DNA from: Actinomycetota bacterium
Lineage (GTDB): Bacteria > Actinomycetota > Thermoleophilia > Gaiellales > F1-60-MAGs149
Direction: 5' to 3'
Assembly (NCBI GenBank): GCA_009885805.1
Contig: VFJZ01000086.1
Span: 1-32,317, forward strand
Length of the DNA: 32,317 bases
Shown here: positions 2,544 through 11,944 of the stretch, in pieces
Layout of the letters: each line of letters begins with the position of its first letter
How positions within the stretch are numbered: position 1 is the stretch's first letter
Translations under genes and position numbers: made by a program
The notes under the pieces: generated by a model
Told to the model about the DNA's origin: nothing
Seen by the model: the letters and a program-made list of their open reading frames with translations, nothing else
Database searches by the model: none

Positions 2544-2912
2544 TCAGGCAGTCAGCGGCGGCGGCGCCGGCTCGCGCGAGGCGCGACGCGCGATCTCGTC
2601 CTGCAGGCGGCGCTGATCGGCCGCGGATCCACCGACGAACTCGGCCGCCACCTCGTGCGAGGTGTTCGACAGTGTCCGCGTGCGAATGACGCGCGCGTCG
2701 AACATCAGGGGCGGCTCTGCCGGATCGAGTTGGAGCCCGACGCGGAGCGGCGTCGACGGCTCCATGTAGCGATCGAGCAGGAGGAGGATGCCGCCGGCCG
2801 AGAAGTTCAGGGTGAGGCCATCGGCGGGACCTTCAGCGACCTGCTCGACGCTTGCGACGAGGTTGTCGTCGACGCGCACGAACCGACGCCGCTCGGAGCC
2901 GCGGCGACTCAT
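2544..2912 (-). CDS. Single-domain PilZ protein (c-di-GMP receptor)
   Basis: The protein is 122 residues from the ATG. The two PilZ ligand motifs are visible: an arginine cluster near the N-terminus (RRGSERRRFVRV, giving RxxxR) and NFSAGG (the [D/N]xSxxG motif), followed by beta-rich sequence and a short helical tail (AADQRRLQDEIARRAS). PilZ domains bind cyclic di-GMP and commonly tune motility, which fits the flagellar genes upstream on the same strand. A longer frame from a TTG at 2960 exists, but its start lies inside a hairpin downstream of the sigma-factor gene. The ATG at 2912 has an AGGAG eight bases ahead and places the RxxxR motif at the expected position, so the shorter form is preferred. 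It lacks a YcgR-N-like partner domain. Confidence 0.85.
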   Translation of the reverse strand: MSRRGSERRRFVRVDDNLVASVEQVAEGPADGLTLNFSAGGILLLLDRYMEPSTPLRVGLQLDPAEPPLMFDARVIRTRTLSNTSHEVAAEFVGGSAADQRRLQDEIARRASREPAPPPLTA

Positions 2913-2915
2913 GCC

Positions 2916-2939
2916 GTGCGCTCCTGCGGAGCATCGCAC
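2916..2939 (-). promoter_or_regulatory. Hairpin enclosing the PilZ Shine-Dalgarno
   Basis: In the mRNA, GTGCG pairs with CGCAC and CTCC pairs with GGAG around a three-base loop, with a three-base bulge. The AGGAG that would serve the PilZ ATG lies in the stem. This could limit ribosome access. The pairing is read from the sequence; the regulatory role is a guess. Confidence 0.35.
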
Positions 2940-2952
2940 GGCCTTCGCCACC

Positions 2953-2991
2953 GCACGCAAGGGTCTCCGCTTCGCTCCGACCGTTGCGTGC
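2953..2991 (-). terminator. Hairpin after the sigma-factor gene
   Basis: GCACGCAA and TTGCGTGC form a perfect 8-bp outer stem, with GGTC/GACC pairing further in. It begins seven bases after the sigma-factor stop codon on the minus strand. There is no T-run after it, so termination, if any, would be of the U-less high-GC kind. Confidence 0.4.
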
Positions 2992-2997
2992 TCACCG

Positions 2998-3969
2998 TCA
3001 GTCCTCGCGCCGCAGGTAGTCGCGCAGGCCGGGCTTCATGACCTCGATCTCCCGCAGCGCACGTCCCTCGACCTGCCGGACGCGCTCGCGGGTGACGCCG
3101 AGCCGTGCTCCGACCTCTTCGAGCGTGCAGGGCTTGGAGCCGTCAAGCCCGTAGCGGAGCTCGAGGACATCGCGCATCCGCCCCTGCAGGGCATCCAACG
3201 CCCCACGCAGCTCCTCGAGCTTCATCTGCTCGGCGACGACGATCTCCGGGCGATCCGCGTTGCGGTCCTCGACGAGGTCGGAGAACTGCGAGTCCCCCTC
3301 GCCGACCGGCGTCTCCAGGGAGACCGGATCGTCGAGCAGCTGCCGGAGCGCGATGACGCGGGCGACGGGCAGGCCGATCACCGCTGCGACCTCATCGGCC
3401 GACGGGTCGCGGCCAAGCGTCTGCACGAGCTGGCGATCGATGCGATGCAACTTCTTCAGCACGTCGACGACGTGGACGGGCAGCCGAATCGTGCGGCCCT
3501 GGTCGGCGATCGCTCGGGAGATCGCCTGGCGGATCCACCAGGTCGCGTACGTCGAGAGCTTGAAGCCCTTCCGGTGGTCGAACTTCTCGACGGCCCGAAT
3601 CAGGCCGAGGTTGCCCTCCTGGATCAGGTCGAGCAGCGGCACGCCAGATGACGAGTACGCCTTCGCGATCGAGATCACGAGCCGCAGGTTGCACTCGATC
3701 AGACGCGCCTTCGCGCGCATGTCGCCAGCGTCCTTGCGCCGCGCGAGCAACGACTCTTCCTGGGCCGTGAGGAGACGCCCGTTGCCGATCTGCCGCACGT
3801 AGGTGCGGAGCAGGTCGACCTCCTCGGACGCAGGTACCGCATCGGACTCGTCCGCTTCGACGGCGGCTGGATCGTCCAGCTCGGGCTCGGCGACGACGAG
3901 GGCGAGGCGCGGGCGGGCCCCGGCCTCCTCGTCGTCGGTCTGCGGCTGAATCGGCTCTACGGCGCTCAT
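2998..3969 (-). CDS. RNA polymerase sigma-70 family factor (group 1/2, RpoD-like)
   Basis: This 323-residue factor has an acidic, poorly conserved N-terminus (about 1-50), then region 1.2 ([13 protein letters not shown]), region 2 with the core-binding and -10-reading segment ([49 protein letters not shown]), region 3, and region 4 with a clear helix-turn-helix ([20 protein letters not shown]). Region 2.4 is of the primary-sigma type, so it should read TAnnnT-like -10 boxes. It is not a FliA-type factor. It is shorter than typical RpoD and lacks a long region 1.1, so it could be the housekeeping factor or a group 2 paralogue. Two promoter candidates stand in front of it, one sigma-70-like and one sigma-28-like. 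It lies between the flhF tail genes and PilZ. Confidence 0.93.
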
Positions 3970-4081: not shown

Positions 4082-4109
4082 TGTATATCGTACGGAGTGA
4101 AGGGCTCAA
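4082..4109 (-). promoter_or_regulatory. Sigma-70-type promoter before the sigma-factor gene
   Basis: TTGAGC (4104-4109) and TATACA (4082-4087) are 16 bases apart on the minus strand, in an unusually AT-rich patch. The -35 overlaps the stop codon of the preceding gene. Transcription from here would give a leader of about 105 bases running through the sigma-28-like site. Confidence 0.5.
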
Positions 4110-4711
4110 ATCTCCACCGTCACCAGTGCTTCGCTGGCTCGGACGCGACCGACGGCGAGGGTCGCGCGTCGCGGCTTGCGTCCCGAGGCGGTCCGGATCA
4201 CGAGGGTGTCGCCGTCCATGGCGACCGATGCGATCGCGCCGCCGGGCACGCGCTCGAAGATGCCGACCAGTTGCAGGTCGGCGGGCATGCGGAGCCGACT
4301 CGCCCTGAACAGGGCCAGCAGGTGGTCGCGCAGCGCATCGGCCGGAATCACAGCGGGTGGTGTCGCTTCCCGGCGCAGGAGCTGGAGCGATTCCGGCCGT
4401 GCCTTACGTGGCTTGCTTGGCTCGAGCCGCACGGGCGGCGACTGCACCGTCGGGCGCGGGATGCGGACAGTCGGTGCCCGCTCCGCGAACAGCGTCGTCG
4501 CGAGATCGACGCCGACGACGTCGACACTGGCCCAGATGTCGGGCTCCTCGATCACGATCGCGTCGCCGTCGTCGTCCAGGTCGACGACGTCGACCATGGT
4601 GATCGGCAGTCCGTCGACGATCGCGACGGGCGGCGGCTCGACGAGGGCGGTCCCGACCCCGATCGTCAGCGTCACGGACTCGACGGTGACGTCCGGCGTC
4701 CGGCGGATCAT
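4106..4711 (-). CDS. Uncharacterised protein, last gene of the flhF tail
   Basis: The 201-residue product is not recognised. It has no signal peptide or membrane segment. The N-terminal half is acidic and rich in Val/Asp (VDVVDLDDDGDAIVIEEPD), the middle (about 78-112) is a Pro/Arg-rich linker, and the C-terminal part (about 120-201) looks like a small alpha/beta domain ending in beta strands. The ATG overlaps the stop of the preceding gene by four bases (ATGA), so translation is probably coupled and the gene belongs to the flhB-flhA-flhF transcript. A flagellar or surface role is possible by context only. Confidence 0.75.
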   Translation of the reverse strand: MIRRTPDVTVESVTLTIGVGTALVEPPPVAIVDGLPITMVDVVDLDDDGDAIVIEEPDIWASVDVVGVDLATTLFAERAPTVRIPRPTVQSPPVRLEPSKPRKARPESLQLLRREATPPAVIPADALRDHLLALFRASRLRMPADLQLVGIFERVPGGAIASVAMDGDTLVIRTASGRKPRRATLAVGRVRASEALVTVEI

Positions 4712-5244
4712 GCGGCGGCCGAGACGTCGCCGGCGGCGATCAGTGCCAGCCCGGCTCGCACGCGCTCCATCGGCTCGAACAGGTCCATCGTCTCCGCGGC
4801 TCCGTGCAGGGCGCGTCCGATCTCGGGGTACAGGTGCGGCTGGGCGGCGGTCACGAGCCGCAGCGGCGCCTCGTCGGCGCGAAGCTGGAGCAGAAACCCC
4901 GGCGCCGCACCGGCGAATGGCTCGACGACGCCAGGCGCCCCGATCGGATCGACGCCGGACTCCTCGAGGTGCGCAAGTGGGAAGCGCGCGTCGCCGACGA
5001 GCGAGGGTTCGGAGACGAGGACGACGGGAACGTCGTGCTCGACGCCCACCACGAGGCGCTGCGTGATGACGACCGTGCGCAGATAGCGATCGAGCGCATT
5101 GCCGTAGAGGGCGCGCTGGAGCTTGGTCGGCCGCACCGGCAGGGTGTGCCTGAACTCGACTGGCAACCCGTACTCGTCCGCGACGAGCACACCGCCCAGG
5201 TAGCCGAAGGGATCGCCACCGGTCACCGCCAGGTAGCCGATCAC
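4708..5244 (-). CDS. Conserved uncharacterised protein with PVEFRHTLPVRPTKLQ signature
   Basis: This 178-residue soluble protein starts with a compact beta-rich segment (MIGYLAVTGGDPFGYLGGVLVADEYGL...) followed by PVEFRHTLPVRPTKLQRALYG. That motif gives the impression of a widespread uncharacterised family, but I cannot name it. No catalytic motif, signal peptide or membrane segment is evident. The gene overlaps both neighbours by four bases (ATGA junctions), placing it firmly in the operon behind flhF. It may form a functional unit with the adjacent 96- and 201-residue proteins. The function is unknown. Confidence 0.75.
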   Translation of the reverse strand: MIGYLAVTGGDPFGYLGGVLVADEYGLPVEFRHTLPVRPTKLQRALYGNALDRYLRTVVITQRLVVGVEHDVPVVLVSEPSLVGDARFPLAHLEESGVDPIGAPGVVEPFAGAAPGFLLQLRADEAPLRLVTAAQPHLYPEIGRALHGAAETMDLFEPMERVRAGLALIAAGDVSAAA

Positions 5245-5531
5245 GCGGTCACGTCCAGCAGGTGTCCGTCATCGTCGTCGGTAGGCTCGTCGTCGTAGTG
5301 CTCGTCCGGGCGGTCGCCGGGCTGGCGCCCTTCCCGCTGACGCGGTCCCATGCCCTCGACCCGCTCGGCCCGCTGCACCTGTTCGGCGCGGCGCTCCGCG
5401 AGGCGCTGCAGTTCAGCTGCCACCTGGTCGTTGCCGGCCCGCTCGGCGCCGGCCTGGGCCGAGCGGGCGCGGGCGAGCAGATCGCCCTGCGAGACGAGGT
5501 TGGGGATGCCGATCGGGGGGACGTTGGACAT
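5241..5531 (-). CDS. Small coiled-coil protein behind flhF
   Basis: The 96-residue product has a short N-terminal segment (MSNVPPIGIPNLVSQGDLL), an Ala/Glu/Arg-rich helix likely to form a coiled coil (about 20-60), and a highly acidic, disordered C-terminus (DEHYDDEPTDDDDGHLLDVTA). It resembles no family I can name. Its stop overlaps the next ATG by four bases, and it starts 13 bases after the previous gene, so it is co-transcribed with flhBAF. The composition would suit an adaptor or small partner protein, but this is inference. Confidence 0.7.
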   Translation of the reverse strand: MSNVPPIGIPNLVSQGDLLARARSAQAGAERAGNDQVAAELQRLAERRAEQVQRAERVEGMGPRQREGRQPGDRPDEHYDDEPTDDDDGHLLDVTA

Positions 5532-5544
5532 TCCTCAGTCCCGC

Positions 5545-5913
5545 TCACTTGCGGCCCGGCGGTAGCGCCGGGGCGCGCAGCGCCTCTTCAAGCGACGGCG
5601 GCAACGGCATGCCGGTTGCCTGCAGTTGCAGCGCGACCTTGCGCTTCGCCTCGACGAGCCGCTGGTCGTACTCGGCGCGCTGCTCCACAACGTTCGCCTT
5701 GATGCCCTCACGGACGAGGAACAGCGCCAGGAACCAGGCGCAGGGAAGGACGAGCAGGGAGCCGAGCAGGCCGTGCATGATCGAGTCGGAGATCGCGCCG
5801 CCGGCCCGGTACGTCGCCACGAAGCCGACGGCGAAGCCGAGCAGCGCGCCGACCGCCTTGATCGGCGAGACGATCGCGGCAATCGCCGTCGGCGTGTCGA
5901 TTGTGTCGGCCAT
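5545..5913 (-). CDS. Small two-helix membrane protein behind flhF
   Basis: This 122-residue protein has two predicted membrane segments (about 20-40 with VGALLGFAVGFVATY, and 48-68 with GLLGSLLVLPCAWFLALFLV). A charged amphipathic cytoplasmic helix follows (VEQRAEYDQRLVEAKRKVALQLQ), then a Pro-rich end. It starts seven bases after the flhF stop. In many flagellates this position is taken by flhG/fleN, a MinD-type ATPase. Here there is no ATPase, and this membrane protein begins a run of four uncharacterised genes. A role in flagellar placement or in the export apparatus is conceivable but unproven. Confidence 0.75.
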   Translation of the reverse strand: MADTIDTPTAIAAIVSPIKAVGALLGFAVGFVATYRAGGAISDSIMHGLLGSLLVLPCAWFLALFLVREGIKANVVEQRAEYDQRLVEAKRKVALQLQATGMPLPPSLEEALRAPALPPGRK

Positions 5914-5920
5914 CCCTCAC

Positions 5921-7249
5921 CTACTTCGGCAGAATCCGCTCCGCGATCGATACCCCGTCGGCAACGCGCAGGTCGCCGGGGACGCGCGGGCCACTCGCGA
6001 GGTACGAGAGCGGCAGGTCGTAGACCGTCGCCAGGCCGTACAGCGGGCCGGCGAACCGGGCCTCGTCCGTCTTCGACACGAGTAGGCGATTGGCGCCGAC
6101 ACGCGCGAGCCGCGACAGCGTCGCCGCGATCTCGCGGTCGGCCGTGCCGAGCGGGACGACGGCATGGGTCTCGTGCGGTGTCGCCGCGTCGAGCAGCGTG
6201 CGGAGCATCGCCGCGCCGGGCTCGTCGCCGATCGCGATGCCTGGCGTGTCGATCAGCACCGCGTCCCGTGCGTGGAGGCGCTCGACGGCGCGGTGCATCT
6301 CGGTCGCGGTCGTCACGCGGAGGACGTCGGCACCGGCCATGTACGCAAGCGCGCGGTCGGCCTCCGATCCAGCGGCGGCGCCGAGGCGAGGCAGGACCGG
6401 GTGCGCCGCGTCGTCCCGCCGGCTCGCAACGACGATGCCAACCGTGAGGCCGGAGTCGGTCAGGCCGACGGCGAGGTTGGCGATGGCGGTCGTCTTGCCG
6501 GCGCCGGAGCCGCCGACGACGGCGATCCGTCGGGCACTGCCGTCAGGCTCGTAACCCTGCTCGACCCTGATGCGATCGGCGATGCGGGCGCGCACGAGGT
6601 CACGCAGCCGTCCGCCGCCGAACGGCTCGACATGGTGCTGGACTGCGCGGACGAGCGACTCGGCGGCGTCCAGGGCGATACCCGAGCGCTCGAGTTCGAG
6701 GACGAGATCCTCCGCCTCGTCGTCCAGCGGCGCTCGCTCGAGCGGCTGCGGCGCGATGCGGACGCGGCCCCGCGGCGTCCGGGTCGCCGTGATGCGCGCC
6801 GGCTCGAAACGGCGCTGATCGTTGGTATACGCGGCGTCGGCGGCCGCGCGCGAACTGGCCGGCGTGACGGGCTCGTCCGCCGCCTCCTCGCGCTCGACCT
6901 GGGCGCGGAGCGCATCCGAGAACGTGGCGCGCAGCAGCGCGTCCCGGCTCTCGCTGTCGTGGGCGTCGACGGTGGCGCGCGACGGCGCCGCGGTCGTCGG
7001 CGTCGTGTTCCGGGTCGGGGCCGGAGCGGGAGTGGGTCGCGCTGGTGAAGCCGGTGCCGGCGCGAAATCGGCTGCGCCCATGCTGCCGTCACCCGCCAGC
7101 ACCTCGACGCCGGTGCGGGCGAAGAACCCTCCGACACCGCCCGAGCGGATCGGACGCTGCTTGAGGATGACGGCGTCGGGGCCGAGCTCCTCGCGGATGC
7201 GCGGGACGATCTCGGTCAGGCTCTTGCCCGCATACGTCTTCATCTTCAT
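5921..7249 (-). CDS. flhF: Flagellar biosynthesis GTPase FlhF
   Basis: FlhF is an SRP-type GTPase that sets flagellum position and number. The 442-residue form begins MKMKTYAGKSLTEIVPRIRE, the typical FlhF B-domain start. A poorly conserved Pro/Ala-rich linker (about 60-170), the N domain and the G domain follow, with P-loop GGSGAGKTT (246-254), DTPG (334-337), SKTDE as the guanine-specificity motif (392-396) and the C-terminal SGPRVPGDL region. A longer open frame upstream is excluded because it would run inside flhA in another frame. The ATG overlaps the flhA stop by four bases. The gene is third in flhB-flhA-flhF. No flhG follows. Confidence 0.95.
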   Translation of the reverse strand: MKMKTYAGKSLTEIVPRIREELGPDAVILKQRPIRSGGVGGFFARTGVEVLAGDGSMGAADFAPAPASPARPTPAPAPTRNTTPTTAAPSRATVDAHDSESRDALLRATFSDALRAQVEREEAADEPVTPASSRAAADAAYTNDQRRFEPARITATRTPRGRVRIAPQPLERAPLDDEAEDLVLELERSGIALDAAESLVRAVQHHVEPFGGGRLRDLVRARIADRIRVEQGYEPDGSARRIAVVGGSGAGKTTAIANLAVGLTDSGLTVGIVVASRRDDAAHPVLPRLGAAAGSEADRALAYMAGADVLRVTTATEMHRAVERLHARDAVLIDTPGIAIGDEPGAAMLRTLLDAATPHETHAVVPLGTADREIAATLSRLARVGANRLLVSKTDEARFAGPLYGLATVYDLPLSYLASGPRVPGDLRVADGVSIAERILPK

Positions 7250-9372
7250 GCGATGCTCCCTTCGGTAGCGAGTTCGACGGTCCCGACGGCATCGACGTGC
7301 GTGCTGGGCAGGATCTCGTTGTACGACAGGACGGCCGTGCGCGGCAGGGCGTGGGCCGCGAGCGCGCGGATGTGGCGCCGCACCTTCGGGCTGCAGACGA
7401 CCGCTGCCCGATGGCCACTCTCGGCGGCGGCCTCGACGGCATCGCGCAGCGCGCGGACGATCGCCTCGGCCCGACCGGGGTCGAGACCCAGATACGAGCC
7501 ATCGGTCGTCTGGATGACGCTGTCGCCGAGCTCCGACTCCAGGGACGGTTCGAGCACGACCGCGGCGAGCGTGCCGAAGGGATCGACGGCCGCCTGCGTC
7601 AGCTGGCGCGCGAGTGCCTGGCGACAGTACTCGGTGAGGAGCGCCGGGTCTTTCGTCAGCCGCGCGCGGTCGCCGAGCGTCTCCAGGATCGTGACGAGGT
7701 CGCGCACCGAGACGCCCTCGGCGAGCAGCAGCTGGAGAACGCGATGCACCTCGGCGACGCTGCACGCGTCGGGGACGAGTTCGTCGACGACAGCGGGGAA
7801 ACGCTCACGCAGGTGATCGAGCAGCGTCCGTGCGTCCTGCCGCGACAGCAGCTCCGCGGCGTGGGAGCGAACCGTCTCCGTGAGGTGGGTGATCACGACC
7901 GAGGCGTGGTCGACGACGGTGTAGCCGCCGGCCTCGGCCTGCTCGCGGGCGCCGTTCGGCACCCACAGCGCCGGCAGTCCGAACGCAGGCTCGACCGTCG
8001 CTTCGCCGGTCAGGCTCGGATCGGCATCACCGGGATTCATCGCCAGCAGGCAGCCGGCCGCGAGTTCGCCGCGGGCCACCTCTGACCCCTTGATCCGCAC
8101 CGCGTACGAGTGCGATGCGAGCTGGACGTTGTCGCGGATCCTGATCGGCTGCAGCACGAGCCCGAGCTCGGTCGCCATCTGCTTCCGGACGAGGCCGACG
8201 CGCTTCAGCAGCTCGCCGCCTTCCGCCTCGTCGACGAGCGGGATCAGGCCGTAGCCGATCTCGAGCTCGAGCGTGTCGAGCGACAGTGACTTGGTGACGG
8301 CGTCGGCCGGCGGCGGCAGCGCTTTGAGCGTCTCCTCCTCCTCCAGCGCGACCGCGTTGGCGGCGAGGTCGCGTTGGCGCTGACGCAGGCCGTAGGCGAG
8401 CGAGCCGACGATCACGGCGAGGAGGATGAACGGCACCTTCGGCAGCCCCGGCACGAGGCCGAGCGCGAGCAGGACGGTGGCGGCGATGAACAGCGGCTTC
8501 GGGTTGCGCAGCATCTGCGCCGCCATGTCCGAGCCGAGGTTCGAGTTCGCGTCGGTTGCCGCCCGGGTGACGATGATGCCGGTCGCGGTCGAGATCAACA
8601 GCGCCGGAATCTGCGCGGCGAGGCCGTCGCCGATCGACAGCAGGGAGAACGTCGTGACGGCGTCGCCGAAGCTCCGCCCCTGCTGCGCGACGCCGATCGC
8701 GATGCCGGCGAGCAGGTTGATGGCGACGATCACGATGCCGGCGATGGCGTCGCCCTTGACGAACTTCGAGGCACCGTCCATCGACCCGTAGAAGTCGGCC
8801 TCGCGCTGGATCTTGTCGCGACGGATGCGTGCCTCTTCGTCCGTGATCTGGCCGGCGTTGAGGTCGGCGTCGATCGCCATCTGCTTGCCTGGCATGGCGT
8901 CGAGCGTGAAGCGGGCGGCGACCTCGGCGACGCGGCCGGCGCCGTTCGTGATGACGACGAACTGCACGACCACGATGATCAGGAACACGACGAGGCCGAC
9001 GACCACGTTGCCGCCGACCACGAATGAGCCGAACGCGTGGATCACCGAGCCGGCGTCACCGTGCAGCAGGATCAGCCGCGTCACGGAGATGTTGATCGCG
9101 AGCCGGAACAGCGTCGTGAACAGCAGCAGCGACGGGAACACGCTCAGGTCGAGCGCGTCCTGCGTGTACATCGCGAGCAGCACGACCGTCAGGGCGATCG
9201 CGAGATTGACCGTGATCAGGATGTCGAGCAGCATCGCCGGCAACGGCAGCACCATCATCACGACCACCAGCACGACGCAGACCGCGACGCCGAGGTCGGC
9301 GTGCTTCAGCACCTGCCCGATCAGCCCGCCGCCAGGCGACTCGACCCGTCGGGGTCCGACCGCGACCGCCAT
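7246..9372 (-). CDS. flhA: Flagellar type III export protein FlhA
   Basis: FlhA is the large export-gate subunit of the flagellar type III secretion apparatus. At 708 residues it has the normal length. Roughly eight membrane helices occupy residues 20-325, and the conserved cytoplasmic loop between them is visible (RFTLDAMPGKQMAIDADLNAGQI, RIRRDKIQREADFYGSMDGASKFVKGDAIAG, given here in part). A C-terminal cytosolic domain (about 360-705) serves chaperone-substrate docking. It lies three bases after flhB and overlaps flhF by four bases, so the three are co-transcribed. The GTG start is the first in frame, giving MAVAVGPRRVESPGGG ahead of the first helix. Confidence 0.97.
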   Translation of the reverse strand: MAVAVGPRRVESPGGGLIGQVLKHADLGVAVCVVLVVVMMVLPLPAMLLDILITVNLAIALTVVLLAMYTQDALDLSVFPSLLLFTTLFRLAINISVTRLILLHGDAGSVIHAFGSFVVGGNVVVGLVVFLIIVVVQFVVITNGAGRVAEVAARFTLDAMPGKQMAIDADLNAGQITDEEARIRRDKIQREADFYGSMDGASKFVKGDAIAGIVIVAINLLAGIAIGVAQQGRSFGDAVTTFSLLSIGDGLAAQIPALLISTATGIIVTRAATDANSNLGSDMAAQMLRNPKPLFIAATVLLALGLVPGLPKVPFILLAVIVGSLAYGLRQRQRDLAANAVALEEEETLKALPPPADAVTKSLSLDTLELEIGYGLIPLVDEAEGGELLKRVGLVRKQMATELGLVLQPIRIRDNVQLASHSYAVRIKGSEVARGELAAGCLLAMNPGDADPSLTGEATVEPAFGLPALWVPNGAREQAEAGGYTVVDHASVVITHLTETVRSHAAELLSRQDARTLLDHLRERFPAVVDELVPDACSVAEVHRVLQLLLAEGVSVRDLVTILETLGDRARLTKDPALLTEYCRQALARQLTQAAVDPFGTLAAVVLEPSLESELGDSVIQTTDGSYLGLDPGRAEAIVRALRDAVEAAAESGHRAAVVCSPKVRRHIRALAAHALPRTAVLSYNEILPSTHVDAVGTVELATEGSIA

Positions 9373-9375
9373 CGA

Positions 9376-10437
9376 TCAGGCCCAACTCAGGCGTCGGCGG
9401 GACGTGCGATAGACGAACGCGAGCACCTCGGCGACGGCCGCGAAGTACGACGCCGGGATCTCCTGGTCGACCTCGACCTCGGCGTAGAGCGAGCGCGCCA
9501 GCGGGGCGTTCTCGACGATCGCGATGTCGTGCTCAGCGGCGATCTCGCGGATGCGCAGCGCGATCAGGTCCTGACCCTTCGCCAGGACCTTCGGCGCCAT
9601 CACGTCCTGGCCGTAGCGGAGCGCGACGGCGAAGTGGGTCGGGTTCGTGATGATCACGTCGGCCGACGGCACCTGCGCCAGCATCCGCTGCCGCGACATC
9701 TGCGCGGCGCGCCGACGGATGGCGCCCTTGATCTCGGGAGCGACGTCCTGCTGGCGCGCCTCCTCCTTGACGTCCTGCTTCGACATCTTCAGCGAGCGCT
9801 CGTGCTGCCAGCGCTGGAAGATGACGTCGCCGATCGCGAGCGGCACGAGCACGGCGAGGATGAAGAACGCGAGCTTGATCATGAGGCCACCGGTGTAGCC
9901 CGCGATCGCAGCCGGCGGCAGGTCCGAGAGGCGCGCGAGCCGATCGATCTCGGGCCACAGGACCAGTACGGCGACGACGCTGACCGTGGCGACCTTGAGG
10001 AGCGACTTGGCGAGTTCCATGAACGCCTGGGGGCCGACGAGGCGCTTCAGGCCGCTGAACGGCGACACCTTCTTGAAGTCCGGCTTGATCGCGCCGAGCG
10101 TCAGACCCGGCTTGTTCTGGATCACGTTCGCGACCAGACCGGCCACGGCTGCGGCGGCCAGGACCGGCGCCAGGATGACGCCCGTCGCCATGGCGAAGTG
10201 GGTTCCCAGTCCGCCGATCGTCTCCGGCGTGATGCCCGGCGCGGCGACCCGTGTCAGCGTCTCGCTGAGCAGTTCGCGCATCCCTCCGAACATCATCGGT
10301 CCGGTGATCGCGAGCGCCCCGGTGGTGGCGAGCAGAACGGTCGTCGAGTTGACCTCGGGCGACCGCGCCACCTGACCCTTCTTGCGGGCCTCGTTGCGCT
10401 TCTTGGGAGTTGCCTTCTCAGTGCGTTCGCCGGCCAT
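9376..10437 (-). CDS. flhB: Flagellar type III export protein FlhB
   Basis: FlhB is the export-switch protein. It has 353 residues, with the typical N-terminus ([20 protein letters not shown]), four membrane helices, and a cytoplasmic domain with the self-cleavage motif NPTH at 265-268. Cleavage between Asn and Pro changes export from rod/hook to filament substrates. The start is an ATG with AAGAGG six bases ahead. A leader of about 67 bases separates it from a sigma-28-like promoter and contains an AGGA-loop hairpin. It is the first gene of the flhB-flhA-flhF operon. Confidence 0.97.
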
Positions 10438-10700: not shown

Positions 10701-11753
10701 TCAGAACTCGAGCGGCGACCAGGGCGCGCGGTCGCTCACCCAGTCGAGCGCGACGCCCGGCGCGATTCGCCCCGCGTCCACGAGCTCGCCCGGTGCGGCG
10801 GCGCCGAGCAGCAGGTTCGCGAAGGTCTCGTCGTCGACGCCGGGATCCTCGAGCCCGCGTGCCGCGCACAGCTGCTCCCGGTCGAGCGGGTTCAGCCAGA
10901 GGCCGTCGCTCACGTGGCTGACGTCGACGCGTCGCGGCTCACGGAGCAGGTGCGGCAGCGGCTCGTCGGCCGCTCGTGCCTCAGCCACGACCTCGCTGAC
11001 GTTTGCCATGCCGAGCAGGTAGCGCCACAGCGCGGCGTACGCGGCCGGTGTCGTAGCGATGAGCTCGGCCACCGTCAGGACGTCGTCGCGATGCCCTCGC
11101 GTGTAGCGGCGTTCGAACGTGTAGAGCGCGTAGCCGTCGTCGCACGCGACCATGAAGCCCTTGTGGTCATCGAGGAGCCAGCGCGCGTCAGCGTCGAGAC
11201 GATCCGTGAAGCCCGACCGCTCGCGGCGACACCGCTCCCAGACGGCCTGGTAGTGCTCGATCGCGCCCTTCGGCTCGACGAGGCGTAGGGGCACGGGCGC
11301 GGGCGCGTCGTCGCGGAACCGCGCGTGCGCGGTCGCAACCGTGATGCGCGCGCGCCGCGTTGCGACGCCGTACCCGAACGGGCGGTAGAACCCTGAGACC
11401 ACGGAGTGCAGGAGCGACGCGGCGAGGCCCTCGGTTCGGCACGTGGCCAGGTGCTCCTCGACAAGGGCCCGCATGACGCCCCGGCGCCGGTGCGTCGGCA
11501 GAACGGCGACCCACGTCAGCCCGCGGCACGGCACCGTGACGCCGGGGCGGACCGTTAGTTCGAACGGCTGATCGAGCGCCGTCCCGACGATCTGCCCGTC
11601 CTCGTACGCACCGGTGAGACGGTACAGCGGTTCCGCGAGGACCGCCGCGACCTCTCGGCGCCGCTCGGGTGTCTCGACCCGGCCGAAGCCCGTCGAGTGC
11701 GCGACGAAGAACGCCTCGTGCTCGTCGGCCTCGACGGCGCGTACCTCGATCAC
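10701..11753 (-). CDS. Eis-like GNAT N-acetyltransferase
   Basis: The 350-residue product follows the Eis plan: an N-terminal GNAT domain with acetyl-CoA signature LPTHRRRGVMRALVEEHL (about 105-120), a second degenerate GNAT domain (FYRPFGYGVATRRARI...), and a C-terminal SCP2-like domain (NPLDREQLCAARG). It ends in ...PLEF; in Eis enzymes the C-terminal carboxylate of a terminal aromatic residue takes part in catalysis. Eis enzymes acetylate amines, including aminoglycosides and peptides, but the substrate here is unknown. A longer frame runs upstream, but the GTG at 11753 overlaps the stop of the 64-residue gene by four bases (GTGA) and gives the proper N-terminus VIEVRAVEADE. It is the last gene of the fliP-fliQ-fliR transcript, an unexpected place for an acetyltransferase. 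Confidence 0.88.
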   Translation of the reverse strand: MIEVRAVEADEHEAFFVAHSTGFGRVETPERRREVAAVLAEPLYRLTGAYEDGQIVGTALDQPFELTVRPGVTVPCRGLTWVAVLPTHRRRGVMRALVEEHLATCRTEGLAASLLHSVVSGFYRPFGYGVATRRARITVATAHARFRDDAPAPVPLRLVEPKGAIEHYQAVWERCRRERSGFTDRLDADARWLLDDHKGFMVACDDGYALYTFERRYTRGHRDDVLTVAELIATTPAAYAALWRYLLGMANVSEVVAEARAADEPLPHLLREPRRVDVSHVSDGLWLNPLDREQLCAARGLEDPGVDDETFANLLLGAAAPGELVDAGRIAPGVALDWVSDRAPWSPLEF

Positions 11754-11944
11754 ACGGCCGAGTCTACCCGCACCGCGTACGGCTGCTCGGCGGAGAGGAA
11801 GCCGAAGAAGAGGCGCCCCTCGCCGCCGCAGGTGTGCTCGGAGCGGATGCGCCAGCCACCACGCCCGTCGGGCTCCGCGCGAATCTCGAGCGGAGGCTCG
11901 CGCACGAGGTCGGCGTCCAACCGCAGCCAGGGCGATTCGTTCAT
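11750..11944 (-). CDS. 64-residue orphan between fliR and the Eis-like gene
   Basis: This small soluble protein has no recognised domain. It is predicted as mostly beta structure (LEIRAEPDGRGGWRIRSEHTCGGEGRLFFGFL), with one Cys and no signal peptide. Its reality is supported by four-base overlaps on both sides: ATGA with the fliR stop and GTGA with the Eis-like start. Such coupling is rarely accidental. It may be a partner of the acetyltransferase or a remnant carried in the operon. Confidence 0.6.
   Translation of the reverse strand: MNESPWLRLDADLVREPPLEIRAEPDGRGGWRIRSEHTCGGEGRLFFGFLSAEQPYAVRVDSAV

Follow-up and report, generated by a model that had tools for sequence, protein, structure and literature searches.

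We found that an actinobacterial class keeps FlhF without FlhG, and that this FlhF is without the residues on which FlhG would act. FlhG is missing and the GTP-splitting signature of FlhF is lost, and therefore flagella in this class would be placed without the textbook FlhF/FlhG switch. In the window, that is, the whole stretch of 32,317 nucleotides analysed here, flhF is followed by four genes that we call A to D, the first two of which mark a class-wide flagellar operon without FlhG. Our preferred reading, to which we give a probability of roughly 45%, is that this is an FlhG-free flhF operon in which FlhF would be a non-cycling tether, A (with B) its membrane partner, and C-D an accessory.

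Four coupled genes follow flhF

The minus strand of the window carries, in this order, flhB (9376..10437), flhA (7246..9372), flhF (5921..7249), A (5545..5913), B (5241..5531), C (4708..5244) and D (4106..4711), then a gene for an RpoD-like sigma factor with regions 1.2, 2, 3 and 4 (2998..3969), 136 bases behind D, and a gene for a short stand-alone PilZ domain protein (2544..2960). The genome that carries the window, as its contig 78, is 3.56 Mb in size and 95% complete. A preliminary description of the region had reported four coupled reading frames on one strand behind flhF, and ORF coordinates, codon usage and substitution patterns bear it out. The junctions flhF/A/B/C/D are +7, +13, -4 and -4 bases, and a codon-usage gene caller trained on flhA, flhB, fliP, fliR and the sigma factor gene chose exactly A-D. 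Compared with the nearest relative, changes fall mostly at codon position 3, and because dN/dS is below 1 for each gene (0.21/0.58 for A, 0.35/0.83 for B, 0.23/0.93 for C and 0.49/0.91 for D), A-D are real genes that evolve under purifying selection.

None of A, B, C and D scores above the cut-off of any Pfam or NCBIfam model. The A protein (122 aa) has two hydrophobic segments, at 11-29 and 49-67, predicted to be membrane helices as the preliminary description had proposed, and a basic tail; searching PDB sequences with a profile of A brought up no convincing match, and PADLOC none. B (96 aa), for which the earlier label of a coiled-coil protein is a loose one, is a low-complexity, charged protein with an acidic tail ending in LDVTA. 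The string PVEFRHTLPVRPTKLQ, by which C (178 aa) had been characterized, proved to be the core that the C family conserves, for which we found no Pfam family. The family core reads GLPV[DE]FR[YH]TxPVxPTxLQRxLYG, and C agrees with a looser family pattern, GLPV[DE]FRxTxPxxPTxLQxxLYG together with a C-terminal LEPxxRV. D (201 aa), the partner of C, combines a variable N-terminal half with a conserved C-terminal domain of ~75 aa; it had been called acidic, which is a loose label for a protein with 27 acidic and 24 basic residues, nearly balanced overall.

Two neighbouring features may be mentioned. The sigma factor encoded at 2998-3969 may control flagellar genes. Between fliR and flhB, the window (10701-11944) has an ORF for a GNAT/Eis-like acetyltransferase (10701-11753) and another of 64 aa, where the nearest relative has a short ORF only (L048:7142-7363).

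A is kept behind flhF across the class and C-D are optional

Judged by FlhA, 48 of the 249 genomes of the class are flagellated, and the surroundings of flhA were compared at 47 loci using profiles seeded with the window proteins and a gene-order table; genes in the related loci were called by our own script. A was found behind flhF in 37 class loci (37 A genes, window included), either adjoining it or separated from it by one PilZ gene, and the loci without A are mostly those with a contig edge, a divergent flhA or no called flhF. The slot directly behind flhF, in which flhG would be expected, is held in 24 class loci by a gene for a YcgR-like PilZ protein of ~220 aa, with A next, usually followed by a B-like gene, and mostly without C-D. 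A short charged B-like protein usually follows A in the class loci as a whole. C-D were limited to family f1 (G000 and G002, and at another locus in G001), G017 and the readable loci of family f5; most flagellated families of the class do not have them, and in most of the other loci the next genes are flagellins. C-D are thus an optional pair in the FlhG-free flhF operon. Of the proposed linkage of all four genes to flhF in relatives, the part concerning A stands and that concerning B usually does, but that concerning C-D does not.

The nearest relative, G001, which belongs to the same family, has flhB-flhA-flhF-A together on contig 44 and a B-C-D-sigma-PilZ block at another locus with non-flagellar genes upstream. 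Because G001 splits flhF-A from this block, A-D consist of at least two separable pieces. The order C-D-sigma-PilZ is kept in both G001 and G002.

The flhA survey also revealed variation in other flagellar genes. Flagellar export genes vary at L053 and L055: beside the class-type set, G018 has another, divergent one (FlhA ~40% identical), and in G021 the divergent type was found. About eight tandem flagellin-type genes lie behind flhF-PilZ-A in one locus (L075:1-7300), and five in another (L072).

In a sample of 396 genomes of the phylum, A had ten strong matches, all in genomes with flhA (10/10), which supports a tie of A to flagella; two further matches in other families were weak (E about 1e-5) and lay inside long frames. 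A profile grown from the window B collected five members only. The B-like genes behind A end in Phi-D-Phi-x-A and often have a (D)PIxPI-like stretch at the N-terminus, and judging from position and these end motifs the short charged proteins after A probably form one family. Outside the class, G418 has a two-helix protein of 96 aa and a B-like protein behind flhF, and G604 has an A-like gene directly after flhA with no flhF between; sequence profiles did not connect A with the A-like protein of either genome, and the likeness is one of architecture.

FlhG is missing from the class genomes searched

The expected MinD-like FlhG had been noted as missing, and we found it absent from the genome of the window as well as from the ten other flagellated genomes of the class that were searched. 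This absence was assessed with one query at one threshold (E<=1e-8), namely the FlhG of G616, which is encoded behind a canonical flhF. Across 13 genomes, 11 of them from the class, the query matched itself, serving as the control, and the TadZ/CpaE-type ATPases of G001 and G000, the latter inside a tad cluster; it had no match in the nine other class genomes (seven single-contig) or in G418. The seven AAA_31 matches in the genome of the window are ParA types, one TadZ/CpaE, a polysaccharide tyrosine kinase and Mrp/ApbC, and no deviant Walker A ATPase was found behind flhF in class flhF loci. A, B, C and D have no ATPase motif. The DQAxxLR activation helix, present in G616 FlhG as DQAHHLR, was not found in A, B, C, D or the PilZ proteins, the sole match being a sigma factor. 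FlhF and FlhG served as queries in a 2023 survey of flagella in actinobacteria, whose main text mentions FlhG in the methods only (PMC10746217).

FlhF keeps its N-terminus and has lost its catalytic box

In Shewanella, FliG is bound by the N-terminal 44 residues of FlhF and HubP, a polar landmark, by its NG domain, while FlhG stimulates hydrolysis by FlhF via the Gln of its DQAxxLR motif (PMC11236974, PMC12826062). The window FlhF has both the N-terminal B/FliG-interaction region and the NG domain. It scores above the cut-off of PF00448 and matches TIGR03499 with E 5e-29, yet under the curated cut-off (102 vs 174 bits). The SRP-GTPase catalytic I-box DTxR is gone, with no DTYRxxAxEQL sequence, and so is the G3 Arg. 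The canonical residues are present in the FlhF of G616, whose gene adjoins flhG and which was the one sequence used as canonical reference. What is new here, as read from the alignment with this reference, is that the I-box Asp of SRP GTPases is lost from 38 of 38 class FlhF (0/38 retained) while the N-terminus of FliG-binding type is kept. The G3 Arg is retained in 6/38, and the P-loop Lys and G4 Asp are present in 32/38 and 35/38, respectively. Mean pairwise identity among class FlhF is 54% over the first 50 residues vs 32% over the G domain. The FlhF of G418, from another family of the phylum, is also without the I-box, and no FlhG match was found in that genome.

The residue losses suggest that class FlhF probably no longer hydrolyses GTP. 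Having kept the N-terminus of FliG-binding type and lost the catalytic box, FlhF is therefore probably a tether that does not cycle, or that binds GTP only. A change from switch to fixed tether would leave behind this combination, with both the catalytic box and its activator gone.

Distribution and neighbours of C and D

The C family had no counterpart in Pfam or PHROGs scans, no relative in the viral contigs or plasmids searched, and neither C nor D matched in PADLOC. Profile searches of C and D against PDB sequences gave no convincing match: a FliK-like candidate for C (E 0.29) disappeared with a larger profile, and a chaperonin-like one for D (E 0.003) covers its variable low-complexity half. 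An AlphaFold2 model of C from three input sequences has a pLDDT of 38.

Among the 396 genomes of the phylum sample, C had ten credible matches, seven in the class and three outside (G418, G604 and G499). A second group, reached via the AUK107 contig, has C in four of four genomes (G616-G619), again with flhA in all four. Since flhA is also present in the seven class genomes and in G418 and G604, every C genome checked has flhA except G499 (82% complete), where none was seen; presence of these genes in non-flagellated species, which would speak against the preliminary proposal, was thus not observed. Confinement of C-D to flagellar loci did not hold: in another phylum, the pair lies apart from the flagellar genes in G616, its surroundings are non-flagellar in G618 and G619, and G617 has C without D.

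In G418, G604 and G499 the C homologue and the beginning of an SNF2 helicase gene overlap (L113:6687-9733, L112:2-1542 and L114:727-3314, with an Mrr domain in L113). The SNF2 protein of G418 has an Mrr nuclease domain and resembles ZorD/DpdE, and the C-SNF2 pair is possibly an undescribed two-gene defence unit. Directly behind C-D in G618 (L142:8098-8589) lies a gene for a FipA-like protein of 163 aa with an N-terminal hydrophobic stretch. Its matches to DUF2802 and DUF6115 are weak and below the cut-offs, and a count along the sequence shows the three residues that never vary in FipA, G, E and L, at identical spacing. G618 is a distant bacterium, outside the gammaproteobacteria in which FipA was described.

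Weighing the explanations

The operon tail of the window is best read as belonging to an FlhG-free flhF type typical of this actinobacterial class. We hypothesize that FlhF as a tether would bring FliG/FliF to the membrane without GTPase cycling. A would most likely be the membrane partner of FlhF or an assembly cofactor, working in a FipA-like manner without being homologous to FipA, and B, probably disordered, would serve as a linker, its conserved ends possibly docking to FlhF, to A or to the export gate. C-D could be a mobile two-protein accessory that joined the operon in some families. Extending this to the class together with G418, we propose, at a little under even odds, that an inactive FlhF, the loss of FlhG, and a membrane protein with a disordered adaptor as anchor form a common arrangement; with FlhF anchored in this way, the FlhF/FlhG GTPase cycle would be dispensable for flagellar placement. 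Such an arrangement would be a natural separation of FlhF tethering from the GTPase cycle, by which the purpose of the cycle becomes directly testable.

The main rival to the tether is a role of A and B at the flagellar export apparatus rather than in placement, with the closeness to flhF being operon history. In Bacillus subtilis, the small monotopic membrane protein SwrB activates export via FliP (PMC4526659), which provides a precedent, and the place of A in class loci is within or after the flhB-flhA genes. The A-like gene of G604, directly after flhA and without flhF, means that an export-gate role fits there as well. A, however, is predicted to have two helices, unlike the monotopic SwrB, and in the class it follows flhF or flhF-PilZ; we regard this reading as rather unlikely. 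The idea that A-D jointly replace FlhG as a flagellar counter draws on the absence of FlhG and on the close linkage of A-D to flhF. It is highly improbable, since C-D are missing from most FlhG-less class loci, A-D have neither ATPase motif nor activation helix, and FlhF is without the catalytic residues on which such an activator would work. The PilZ gene in the slot of 24 loci and the split block of G001 likewise speak against a single module standing in for flhG.

A further alternative concerns C-D only and is compatible with the preferred reading of an FlhG-free operon with a tethering FlhF. C-D would be either a flagellar accessory of wide and patchy distribution or a passenger pair with a non-flagellar job, in which C could be a general adaptor for D, the SNF2 helicase or others. 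A passenger pair is a real possibility, although we lean against it: the coupling of C to SNF2 proteins in three genomes, the non-flagellar surroundings in G616, G618 and G619, the occurrence of C without D in G617 and the lack of C-D in most flagellated class families all favour it, while the near-constant company of flhA, the position of C-D behind A-B in f1, G017 and the readable f5 loci, and the FipA-like DUF2802/DUF6115-like neighbour in G618 argue against it.

Comparison with known systems

The window operon shares with the FlhF/FlhG positioning switch the order flhB-flhA-flhF and the conserved N-terminal region of FlhF, and differs from it in having no FlhG, in the loss of the FlhF I-box and, usually, of the G3 Arg, and in the A-B tail. 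FipA belongs to the mechanism described for FlhF, FlhG and FipA (PMC11236974, PMC12826062, PMC11620751); it is a partner of FlhF in gammaproteobacteria and has been reported only in genomes with both FlhF and FlhG. A resembles FipA in being a small membrane protein whose gene lies behind flhF and which, within the class, is confined to flagellated genomes, but FipA has a single membrane helix and a cytoplasmic DUF2802 domain whereas A has two hydrophobic segments and no DUF2802 match, and nine class genomes gave no DUF2802 match either. With SwrB, A shares small size and membrane location, and SwrB acts on flagellar assembly; the two, compared by description only, differ in that SwrB is monotopic and acts on export. 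The YcgR-like PilZ proteins of the class stand between flhF and A, whereas the window has a short PilZ gene located after the sigma factor gene. SNF2-Mrr systems of the ZorD/DpdE kind resemble the three loci of the phylum in which SNF2 genes overlap C homologues, with Mrr in G418; they differ in that the window has no such gene and no ZorA/ZorB was seen beside C.
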